Origin: Candidatus Saccharimonadota bacterium
GTDB lineage: Bacteria > Patescibacteriota > Saccharimonadia > Saccharimonadales > JACDBH01
Length of the DNA stretch: 34,384 nt
NCBI GenBank assembly: GCA_028289135.1
Contig: JAQGGW010000008.1
Span: 1 to 34,384, forward strand
Direction of reading: 5' to 3'
Under the pieces are notes generated by a model. It worked only from the letters and a program-made list of their open reading frames with translations. It was not told the DNA's origin and ran no database searches. The position numbers were made by a program, and so were the translations under genes. How positions within the stretch are numbered: position 1 is the stretch's first letter; each line of letters opens with the position of its first letter. Positions 20,235 through 23,560 of this stretch are shown here, in pieces.

Positions 20235-22037
20235 TTAAAGTGAGTTGCAGGCGGCTGGAGGGTTGGTTTGCAGCTTTGGGGTTTCGTTTTCGTACTTATA
20301 AATCACATATTTGTCACCTGTCGCGAACTGGCAGTCGGGCAGCATATTTATGTCATAGCCCAGGTATTGCTTCAAAATAAATCTGAATGGGTTAACAGAT
20401 GAGGTAATATTTTGCTGGACCGTAGCCGCATCTACCCCTGGCATATAGTAGCTCGCAAGCACGCCAAACTTTTGCTTTTCTTGGTCGAGCGGCAAGTTTG
20501 CGGGGTCGTAGTAATGCCCCGGGCTCAGGTCAAAGCGGAATTCTTTAGGGTATGGGCCTTCGTCGGACTGGATAACGATAACAGCGTTTGGCGAATGGAG
20601 GCGGATATAGCCCATGATGTCTCTGATCTGGGTGTTCAAATAAGTAATTTCTTCTTTGTACTTAACAGTTTCGTCCTCGCCGTAGTCGTTGCGGCCGCCG
20701 TCATAGGTGGGGTCGGAGCCGTCTGAGTCAAAAATATAGGGGTCGTGCGGCGCTAAAAAGTGTGTAAAGGTAAACTGCGGGACACTGCTTGGGCTTGAGG
20801 CAATTTGTTTAACGGCAGCTTCCTGGGCATAGAAATTTTCGCGCGGGTTGTTGTCGTTGTCGTACTTAATGACCATAGTTTTGCCGAATGTCAGGCCTTT
20901 TTTAAGCCACGGCGACAAGATGCTTTTGTTAACGACATCACGGGTTAGGTCGCTTAAATAATAGTTTTTACCGAAGGCGCGCAGGCGGAAAGATTTGGTT
21001 TGGTTGCCGTCGGCCTGGACGCCCACGCGGGTAAAGTCCCACCACGAGCTGAGCTGGTTATAAATGTAGCCGTTTTGTTTTAATACCTGTGCAATCGGCG
21101 GGTCGTTGAATATGCTCCGGTACGGAAATGCCGTTTGCTGCTTGGCGTTTCCGAAGAGCTGCATAAGGCCGGTGTGGTACTGCATAGCCATGGTGGAGCT
21201 GATAGATTCCATCGTAAAAGGATAATTTGCCTTGGCGTCCAGCCGGTTTACAAAACCCTGGCCTGCCAGATAGTCGGTCAGCGGATTGTTGTTAATCCCA
21301 TAGACTTTTTGGAGCGTATCGTTACTGCCATAGCGGTCAAATACAAAGTAATAAATGTCGGGTTTGGTAATGGTGGCGCCGGGGGCGCGCTTTAGGTCAG
21401 GTTTTGGGTATTGGTATGACATTTGGCGGTGATAAATGTTTATTTTGTTAACAACTTTTAGCCCCTGGATGGCGAAGATGAACAGCACGGCAAACAGCAC
21501 GATTTTATGCAGCTGTAAGCCCTTCATAAATTTCGCTTCGCGAGCCAAACGAGCTAAGCCGTAGCCCAAGGCCGCGCATAATATGGCCAGGATAACTACA
21601 GATAAAGTAGCGTTAGAAAAGGTTGTTTCAAAGTGTTTTGGCAGGAAAAACTTTCCCGAAGATTGCAGCCAGCGCGGCAGGTAGCTGTAACTATACAGAG
21701 CGTATATCAACGCCAGGCTGGAAATGCGGGCGGCAAGCCAGCTTTTGGTGATTAGCCGCATCAGATAGAAAATAACTGTAGCTAGAATTGCAAAAATTAT
21801 AATCGGCAAAATTATTTCGCCCGGATACTGAAAGTCGGCATTTAACAGATAATGCCCAAAAATAAACGAGCTAATAAAGGCAATCTCTGGCAAGCTGGTT
21901 CGGCTAATAATGCGCGCTGCTTTAATTCCAATGCGTTTTAAGATGACGCCATATTTATCAACGGGTTTTTTTACTTCCGGCTTCTTACTTGTTGGCTTTT
22001 TTGCCGTAAGCTTTTCTTCGTGTTTATGCTTAACCAC
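20235..22037 (-). CDS. Membrane sulfatase-like (alkaline phosphatase superfamily) hydrolase/transferase
   Basis: 600 aa from a GTG at 22037. A Lys-rich cytoplasmic start (1-30) is followed by five hydrophobic helices (about 50-66, 74-94, 102-118, 145-163, 178-193) and an outer catalytic domain (225-600). Sulfatase-fold marks: FVFDRYGSNDT (Asp234, possible Thr nucleophile 241), HFLAPHDPY and VIVIQSDEGPY. The usual SDHG metal motif reads SDEG, with Glu for His. Family members include LTA synthases and phosphoglycerol transferases. Cell-surface polymer modification is likely. A TATTAT (22044-22049 on the minus strand) ends 6 nt before the GTG, so a leaderless start fits. Followed by the TylF-like gene. 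Confidence 0.82.
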   Translation of the reverse strand: MVKHKHEEKLTAKKPTSKKPEVKKPVDKYGVILKRIGIKAARIISRTSLPEIAFISSFIFGHYLLNADFQYPGEIILPIIIFAILATVIFYLMRLITKSWLAARISSLALIYALYSYSYLPRWLQSSGKFFLPKHFETTFSNATLSVVILAILCAALGYGLARLAREAKFMKGLQLHKIVLFAVLFIFAIQGLKVVNKINIYHRQMSYQYPKPDLKRAPGATITKPDIYYFVFDRYGSNDTLQKVYGINNNPLTDYLAGQGFVNRLDAKANYPFTMESISSTMAMQYHTGLMQLFGNAKQQTAFPYRSIFNDPPIAQVLKQNGYIYNQLSSWWDFTRVGVQADGNQTKSFRLRAFGKNYYLSDLTRDVVNKSILSPWLKKGLTFGKTMVIKYDNDNNPRENFYAQEAAVKQIASSPSSVPQFTFTHFLAPHDPYIFDSDGSDPTYDGGRNDYGEDETVKYKEEITYLNTQIRDIMGYIRLHSPNAVIVIQSDEGPYPKEFRFDLSPGHYYDPANLPLDQEKQKFGVLASYYMPGVDAATVQQNITSSVNPFRFILKQYLGYDINMLPDCQFATGDKYVIYKYENETPKLQTNPPAACNSL

Positions 22038-22042
22038 CTAGA

Positions 22043-22048
22043 TATAAT
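22043..22048 (+). promoter_or_regulatory. Plus-strand -10 of the rod-shaped RNA
   Basis: Perfect TATAAT on the plus strand, placing a start near 22055, just before the hairpin. The same AT-rich patch holds the opposite-facing -10 of the sulfatase-like gene. The -35 (GTGTTT, 17 nt upstream) is weak. Confidence 0.5.
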
Positions 22049-22054
22049 ATAGGA

Positions 22055-22175
22055 AATTCGTATGATAGTGCAGTTCGAGATGAAAACCGAGCACAAAGTT
22101 TGAGCCGTATTTAACATACGGTGAGAACTTTTGACGCAGGTTTTCGCTCGAAATGTGCATCATACGGATTTTTTA
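22055..22175 (+). ncRNA. Candidate rod-shaped small RNA, about 120 nt
   Basis: Nearly the whole element folds into one long hairpin. Outer helix: 22059-22088 with 22139-22166 (starts CGTATGAT/ATCATACG, ends GAAAACC/GGTTTTC). Inner helix: AAAGTT/AACTTT (22095-22100, 22126-22131), a symmetric TGAG/TGAG pair (22101-22104, 22122-22125), CCGTAT/ATACGG, and loop TTAAC. As plus-strand RNA the odd positions become U-G and G-U wobbles and a tandem G-A motif; as minus-strand RNA they would be A-C and C-U clashes. Six U (22169-22174) follow the rod and a TATAAT precedes it. It lacks SRP RNA and 6S signatures. The 3' end overlaps the convergent methyltransferase stop. Not a known family to me. Confidence 0.6.
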
Positions 22176-23560
22176 TTAGTATACAGGTAGAGCCACCTCT
22201 CCGAATGGCTAATTTGTTTTTTGCTGGCCAGTTTAAAATGCGCGCCCATAGCCATCTCAAAATGCTCAATGTCATAATCTGGAAAAATGTCTTTGCGTGA
22301 AGCCAGCAAGTGCTTCACCTTGGAGTCGCTCTTGGGAATAAATTCGATAATAATGCTCTTGCCAATCCTGTTCATCAGGCTGGCGATTTTAGGCAGCGGC
22401 ATATTACGCCCAATTGCCAGGTGGTGGATTACGGCCAGCGCCAAAACAGCGTCGGCCGGCCCGCGCTCAACAAGCGACATGCGCTCGTTAAGCTCCCAGC
22501 CAATTGCCGGGCTTGGAACCGCAACATCCTGCACCAATGGCAACATCAACCCGTCAAGTTTGTCATGTTTTTGGTAATTGGCGGCCACGGCCTTGGCGTC
22601 GATATCCCATGCCACCACATAAGCGCCTCTTTTGGCGGCAATTTCGCTAAATTCGCCGTTGTTGGCACCAATATCCCAGACGACTTGCGGCTTTTTATTA
22701 AGTTGGCCTAAGAATGAATCAACCAGCTTGGCTTTGTCTTTAAAGGCTTTGTCGCCGTAGTTGGTAAATTCGTAATATTCGCCCCACTCGGTTGCTGCTT
22801 TAGGGGGTTTAAGCGCCGTCACGGACGCTTCCAGGCTCGACATCAGGCCATTCAGGGCAAAAGTGCTAACCTTGCGCGTTGGAGCATCAGCGGCCTTGGT
22901 ACCACTCCCTTGGTGCTTACGCTGCGAACGTTCGTGCAGATAAACATGCGCCAGCAGGCCTTTTTTAAACTTCGCCTTTTTAGGCAAAAGTCCAACGGCC
23001 AGACTCAGCGGGATCCCCTCCATATAGGTTTGAAGCATCGTCAGCGCTTGCTCGGTCGAAAAATGTGCAACAGCCAGCGGGATTAGAAAATGCTCGATGA
23101 ACTGGCGGTAGCCTTCCCATGCCTGGCCTTCTTCGTATTTGGCAAAAGATAAAGTGTCAATGAATACCGGTTTTTTGCCGATAAACTGCACATTGTATGC
23201 ACTGGCATCTTTTAAAATCATACCGTGCTCCAGAGCCAATTTTTGGATTTTAAGCGTTAATAGCGCGGCGTCGCGGAGCTGCGGGAACGACCATTCGTAA
23301 GGATACGAAATAAAAGGTATTGGTTCGGGTTTTATTACGGCCAGACGGTTAGAATCAGGTTTAAACTTTTTTAGGTCCTTAACTTCAGTATGGGAAACGA
23401 TTAATCCTTTAGCCACTAAAGCATCGTAAAGGCCGGAAGAAATAAACAAATCAAATTCTTCACGGGCAACCTTATTTATTTGGCGGTAAATTGTGCCGTC
23501 CAAATCAAAAACAAAGCCTGCTGGGTCACGGTAGGAACTGGCTAACTGATTGGGCAGCAT
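22160..23560 (-). CDS. NoeA-like class I SAM methyltransferase
   Basis: 466 aa. The N-terminal half (MILKDASAYNVQF, PVFIDTLSFAKYEEG, YRQFIEHFLIPL) matches the NoeA-related nodulation-protein family; the C-terminal half holds a Rossmann methyltransferase with VVWDIGANNGEFSEIA (SAM loop, near 296-311), VAWDIDAKAV and LALAVIHHLAIG. Rhizobial relatives modify surface or signal glycans; here a surface-glycan substrate is an inference. The start lies 9 nt after the YLDAGTGS gene stop. The stop codon lies within the 3' arm of the rod-shaped RNA element. Confidence 0.82.
   Translation of the reverse strand: MLPNQLASSYRDPAGFVFDLDGTIYRQINKVAREEFDLFISSGLYDALVAKGLIVSHTEVKDLKKFKPDSNRLAVIKPEPIPFISYPYEWSFPQLRDAALLTLKIQKLALEHGMILKDASAYNVQFIGKKPVFIDTLSFAKYEEGQAWEGYRQFIEHFLIPLAVAHFSTEQALTMLQTYMEGIPLSLAVGLLPKKAKFKKGLLAHVYLHERSQRKHQGSGTKAADAPTRKVSTFALNGLMSSLEASVTALKPPKAATEWGEYYEFTNYGDKAFKDKAKLVDSFLGQLNKKPQVVWDIGANNGEFSEIAAKRGAYVVAWDIDAKAVAANYQKHDKLDGLMLPLVQDVAVPSPAIGWELNERMSLVERGPADAVLALAVIHHLAIGRNMPLPKIASLMNRIGKSIIIEFIPKSDSKVKHLLASRKDIFPDYDIEHFEMAMGAHFKLASKKQISHSERWLYLYTNKKSV

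Follow-up and report, generated by a model that had tools for sequence, protein, structure and literature searches.

ERIC (IRU) elements of enterobacteria are 127 bp long, and orientation-dependent effects on the stability of the upstream mRNA, with an involvement of the ribosome, have been argued for them (PMC2229807). Correia/NEMIS elements of Neisseria and Rickettsia palindromic elements (RPE) are palindromes of 105–155 bp; NEMIS hairpins were proposed as RNase III targets, and RPE fold into long stem-loops (PMC2229807). REP elements combine stems of 5–13 bp with a tag, GTAG or CGTC, that stays unpaired (PMC3733652), and the stem-loop arrays of TIGR-Tas systems consist of palindromic units that also occur in Patescibacteria/CPR bacteria (PMC12045711). 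Our literature search found no description of such repeats in Saccharibacteria or other Patescibacteria. Integron attC sites, imperfect palindromes located behind stop codons, fold on the antisense strand and carry an extrahelical base.

The window analyzed here is a stretch of 34,384 nucleotides from a Candidatus Saccharimonadota bacterium. It carries a long hairpin that is very probably one copy of a dispersed, mobile-type palindrome found in Saccharibacteria and scattered other Patescibacteria. As the best overall explanation, to which we assign a probability of roughly 0.55, we consider a mobile-type palindrome family with a proposed recognition structure and a proposed mRNA role. The window copy, its parts, and its neighbors are:

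22050–22175, plus strand (the folded strand): whole palindromic element with nominal outer-stem ends, from the fold (z −11.7) and the covariance model
22050–22066, plus strand: left arm of the outer stem (~17 bp), from the arms of 81 matches and covariation
22067–22073, plus strand: AGTGCAG, alignment columns 21–27, nearly invariant
22088–22093, plus strand: CGAGCA, left side of the conserved internal loop, with invariant C, A, and G columns
22101–22104, plus strand: UGAG, left half of the symmetric tandem G-A block, from fold and alignment
22104–22122, plus strand: apical stem-loop GCCGTAT TTAAC ATACGGT, the most widely conserved part of the element
22122–22125, plus strand: UGAG, right half of the tandem G-A block, from fold and alignment
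22133–22139, plus strand: GACGCAG, right side of the conserved internal loop, from the alignment
22153–22158, plus strand: ATGTGC, partner of AGTGCAG, with A22153 opposite G22073, from the alignment and pairing table
22159–22175, plus strand: right arm of the outer stem, from the arms of 81 matches
22160–23560, minus strand: methyltransferase-like gene (ORF), convergent to the folded strand, 3' end within the right arm
20235–22037, minus strand: neighboring gene (ORF) in the same direction, start 12 nt left of the element
22043–22048, plus strand: TATAAT, flagged by the sequence-only reading
about 22170–22174, plus strand: run of six T within the outer stem, flagged likewise

The minimum free energy of the plus strand is −61 kcal/mol, whereas shuffled sequences average −25.7 (z −11.7, none of 200 shuffles as low); the minus strand reaches −42.5 kcal/mol (z −6.6), in agreement with the earlier assignment of the plus strand as the structured one. 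The sequence-only reading had described a hairpin of about 108 nt; the hairpin is real and very stable, but its stem is longer, and the rod measures about 126 nt, with an outer stem that pairs approximately 22050–22066 with 22159–22175. The TATAAT, the long hairpin, and the six T lie where that reading had placed them, and the imperfections that it had pointed out, T22069–G22157, G22070–T22156, and the TGAG/TGAG block, are present and conserved in related copies. AGTGCAG comprises the bulged A22067 and the second-stem residues G22068–A22072, including the tandem U-G/G-U pairs. As the hairpin had been said to resemble no known RNA family, it is consistent that no Rfam 15 family reached its gathering score anywhere in the window; the best lax match, to a plant microRNA precursor model, reached 21.6 bits, far below its cut-off of 140. 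The minus strand carries both flanking genes, and the reported overlap with the convergent methyltransferase gene holds: its stop codon (22160–22162) lies so deep in the right outer arm that the last codons of the gene form part of the hairpin. This gene has weak matches to Methyltransf_12/23 below the curated cut-off, and a Pfam search with the gene at 20235–22037 gave no match.

BLAST detected 10 matches below 1e-4 in the same genome, and a covariance model based on 23 copies detected 31 copies (E < 1e-4) of about 122–126 bp in its 1.05 Mb, matching the window copy at 22047–22180 with 145 bits. Matches to the model are present in 60 of the 149 genomes of the same order and in 19 of 287 genomes of a phylum-wide sample, several of which carry 4–11 copies. 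Searches of phages and plasmids gave no match to the element, and a viral origin was rejected because the covariance model confirmed none of the 4 viral contigs matched by the pattern. The window hairpin is very probably a member of this family and not a lone small-RNA gene.

Some distant genomes (G196, G253, and others) match by the apical stem-loop alone (model positions 49–86), perhaps as a smaller related palindrome. At two loci of genome G079 (L051 and L053), two copies abut directly in tandem, about 114–122 nt apart, which suggests local duplication or insertion next to an existing copy. In genome G001, the interval between ssb and the next gene holds a pair of oppositely oriented copies separated by 36 nt (L056:1501–1634 and 1670–1803). 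Nested within the inner loop of L126:1501–1669 is a palindrome about 36 nt long (CCCCACAAAGCAGGCTTTGCGGGG), a hairpin within a hairpin.

Related genomes had been named as the place to look for covarying copies, and such copies exist. Across 23 copies, both sides change at 34 of 45 pairs, and 90.4% of the cells pair, compared with 30–45% when the partner is slid. Across 80 copies, mostly different from the 23, both sides change at 44 of 45 pairs, and double changes occupy 923 cells, as opposed to 280 in shuffles; these figures are biased towards the model because this alignment was fitted to it. Among the 81 matches compared, the sequences of the outer-stem arms differ while their pairing is maintained, and the outer stems share only a loose consensus and a constant length of about 17 bp. 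By comparison, the bulged A, the tandem U-G/G-U pairs, a GA/A loop, and the UGAG/UGAG block are fixed across copies; the bulged A, the wobble pairs, and the G-A block persist across genera, and the apical stem-loop is identical (25 of 25) in two other genera (G068 and G072). Two layers of the element are conserved: the pairing of the whole rod, with free sequence in the outer stem, and fixed internal features of the plus strand. These fixed features may represent a recognition structure for a putative factor, which would act on the folded plus strand, either as single-stranded DNA or as RNA.

The constraint is strand-specific. With the five conserved wobble columns left out, G-T exceeds A-C by 334:162, and in the outer stem by 112:28; the copies are related, so these counts do not represent independent events. 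Since the excess is similar in copies that abut a convergent stop (162:86) and in the others (172:76), the strand constraint is a property of the element rather than of the host transcript. When only the eight ssb copies are counted, no excess is left outside the conserved columns (9:8). The plus strand is favored by DNA energies in all 77 copies examined and by RNA energies in 74 of these 77; as both favor the same strand, they do not separate RNA from single-stranded DNA.

Copies tend to have the folded strand antisense to the adjacent gene and the base of the stem on the stop codon of that gene. In a placement test that considered open frames of at least 100 codons with a stop located between −17 and +8 relative to the stem base, 82 of 155 distinct copies had a convergent-frame stop at the base and 6 a sense-side stop (1 had both), that is, 81 antisense-only against 5 sense-only copies; 2.5% of random windows have a stop at the base. 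In roughly half of the copies, the base lacks a stop codon of this kind. The stop positions peak at 0 to +6 and at −3/−2; at the latter position, the stop codon supplies the terminal base pairs of the 17-bp outer stem. TGA is rare at these stops (4/82, versus 150/776 long frames in the fetched loci), and TA-containing stops are enriched at the base of the element. By a simple gene call on 75 copies, 42 lie between two genes that oppose the folded strand and 5 between two co-oriented genes, and for many copies the start codon of the next gene on the minus strand is 9–50 nt away. The genes adjoining copies are mostly housekeeping genes: in the genome of the window their products include SSB, IF-1, EF-Tu, S1, L25, S21, Obg, ATP synthase c and epsilon, SecG, HSP20, FKBP, pyruvate kinase, and two response regulators. 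Sites recur at ssb in several genera, at infA in 4 genomes, and at tuf and atpE in 3 genomes each. At L121, L078, and L056:1670–1803, the copy is located just 5' of a ribosome-binding site and start codon, with the downstream gene on the folded strand, and this position suggests that a few copies may serve as leaders.

The element differs in presence between close relatives. Among 18 sites that are syntenic with the closest relative among the genomes compared (G001), the element is shared at three (ssb, infA, and S1), and another seven (L105, L113, L115, L117, L119, L121, and L128) look clearly empty in G001, as judged by eye. At L115, the gene end now lies inside the hairpin arm, and its length is nearly equal to that of its homologue. 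L122 and L125 are identical through the outer stems and their flanks differ immediately outside, suggesting that the unit that moves is about 123 bp long. The empty orthologous sites are too diverged for a clear target-site duplication (TA) to be read. The ssb site carries a copy in about 10 of 80 related genomes. L273 and L198 resemble internal deletions (L198 retains the outer stem but not the core), so the element is also lost at times, and individual cases of gain or loss cannot be polarized; the resolution of the SSB gene tree is too poor for counting them. Because the outer stems differ and L198 is core-less, we also considered insertion of a core into the loop of a pre-existing terminator. 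This possibility was rejected in view of the empty sites, which have no such stem, of the loose consensus and constant length of about 17 bp of the outer stems, and of L122 and L125, which carry the same outer stems at different sites. In several genomes without the element, the ssb/rpsR position is filled by a different short hairpin (ATGAGA..ACC / GGT..TCTCATCGCG), found directly after the ssb stop at L212, L219, L262, and L271.

RAYT-like Y1 transposases occur in 45 of the 149 same-order genomes, as genes of about 205–250 aa (e.g., L140, L145, L146, and L150). RAYT and the element occur together in 26 genomes against 18 expected, a weak link, and a strong copy is present in only 4 of the 30 fetched Y1-transposase loci. 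The genome of the window, which has the most copies of any, contains no RAYT, no reverse transcriptase, and only one tyrosine recombinase, with the reservation that the absence of a mobilizer is not absolute in an assembly of 8 contigs that is 95.6% complete. Tyrosine recombinases number one or two per genome irrespective of copy number, and a Nop-domain protein was found in 0 of 14 carrier genomes. Transcription signals are close to chance: a perfect TATAAT lies within 60 nt upstream of 5 of 75 copies (4.1 in shuffles), and a window with at least six T follows the stem in 5 of 75 (about 3.7), near the shuffled level on both strands. Since neither signal is enriched beside other copies, the TATAAT and the T-run at the window copy are probably there by chance.

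We consider the element to be best read as a new family of small mobile-type palindromes of Patescibacteria, nearest to ERIC in size and habit and outside the definitions of REP, attC, and TIGR. It resembles ERIC in size, palindromic fold, and intergenic, co-transcribed position and, with 31 copies of about 122–126 bp, is a dispersed intergenic palindrome of 100–170 bp as in the ERIC/MITE class. However, ERIC elements end in inverted repeats with a TA duplication, whereas the ends of the Saccharibacteria element are its least conserved part, with outer arms that pair but are free in sequence; the element is also tied to a stop codon, with the folded strand antisense. Correia/NEMIS and RPE are likewise described with terminal inverted repeats, in contrast to the variable ends and the base on a stop codon seen here. 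The element shares with the REP/RAYT system dispersed palindromes that often lie downstream of genes, and the order has RAYT genes, but it is a rod of about 45–50 pairs with no conserved end tag. Membership in the GTAG/CGTC REP class was rejected given the variable ends and an outer stem of about 17 bp with about 30 further pairs, and a RAYT-linked REP was rejected since RAYT, often repeat-flanked in the GTAG type, is absent from the richest genome. Unlike TIGR, the element does not form arrays with spacers and box C/D motifs, and TIGR-Tas was rejected because none of the 14 carrier genomes searched encoded the Nop-domain protein.

Several other explanations can be weighed against this family reading. 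The sequence-only reading had proposed a complete, self-contained promoter–hairpin–terminator unit encoding a small RNA. The TATAAT and T6 do flank the window copy, but the hairpin belongs to a dispersed repeat with 31 copies in the genome, both signals are at chance beside the other copies, and the T-run lies inside the paired outer arm, so this reading is very improbable. A multi-copy regulatory or protein-binding RNA family, acting as sRNA or antisense RNA from nearby or read-through promoters, would fit the covariation, the wobble and tandem G-A pairs typical of RNA, and the RNA energies. We nevertheless regard it as unlikely: promoters and terminators are not enriched, the short distance of many copies to the next start codon leaves little promoter room, and a G-T to A-C ratio of about 2:1 seems modest for an RNA family. 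Long inverted repeats undergo quasi-palindrome correction, and template switching between the arms, rather than selection, could have maintained the pairing, as the near-identity of several inner cores with differing stems might suggest. Such repair, however, would also erase the bulged A, the wobble pairs, and the G-A block, which persist across genera, and it stands against the G-T/A-C asymmetry; it is a quite improbable sole cause.

The question of mobility leads to two further readings. The element is attC-like in that it is placed at stop codons, folds on the strand antisense to the gene, and has an extrahelical base that is conserved. Yet it has no cassette arrays, conserved end boxes, or extra integrase, its ends being the most variable part; the adjacent genes are syntenic housekeeping genes and not cassettes, and the one or two tyrosine recombinases per genome do not follow copy number. 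An integron site was rejected, as the genome has no dedicated integrase but a single tyrosine recombinase, as in copy-free genomes; it is the least likely of the explanations weighed here. A purely selfish single-stranded DNA element of REP/IS200-type logic would be the substrate of a hairpin-binding transposase and have no cellular function, with copies surviving mostly at gene ends because elsewhere they would damage genes. The DNA energies, the independence of the strand constraint from gene orientation, the patchy distribution with empty sites, and the RAYT-like Y1 transposases common in the order speak for such an element. On the other hand, the richest genome lacks RAYT, reverse transcriptase, and a second tyrosine recombinase, survival alone does not explain one-sided stops within a few nucleotides (81 vs 5), and pairing is maintained at ssb in several genera; we find this reading rather doubtful. 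The sequence-only reading had itself held that many dispersed copies would refute it by indicating only a mobile repeat. The copies are indeed dispersed, but this description says too little, because the covariation, the fixed unpaired motifs, and the oriented stop-codon placement show constraint.

For the family reading, placement and gene set suggest an mRNA role of the stop-codon copies. In a working model that we put forward tentatively, at somewhat less than even odds, the element, within operons, either inserts immediately 3' of stop codons or survives there, and it exerts an ERIC-like, translation-dependent effect on mRNA. Its complement would form a hairpin in the host mRNA that begins at the stop codon, and the 17-bp outer stem would lie under the footprint of the terminating ribosome, so that decay or processing of the upstream cistron could depend on its translation. 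Translation-dependent decay via a hairpin has been argued likewise for ERIC (PMC2229807). The plus-strand bias counts against action in the host mRNA as the whole story: since the constrained strand is antisense to the gene in most copies, the host mRNA carries the less stable complement. A stronger version, in which a phylum-specific palindrome is aimed at or selected to stop codons on one side, and its folded strand is read by a factor outside the known mobilizers, seems unlikely at present.

A compact genome retains 31 long palindromes, and many of these sit on stop codons of genes for translation and energy metabolism. The old question of whether small palindromic repeats are selfish or regulatory becomes testable in this family, as copies recur at ssb, infA, tuf, and atpE across genera and comparative and expression tests can be designed directly. 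If true, a stop-codon-directed palindrome would represent a new mode of spread, one that couples translation termination with transcript fate.
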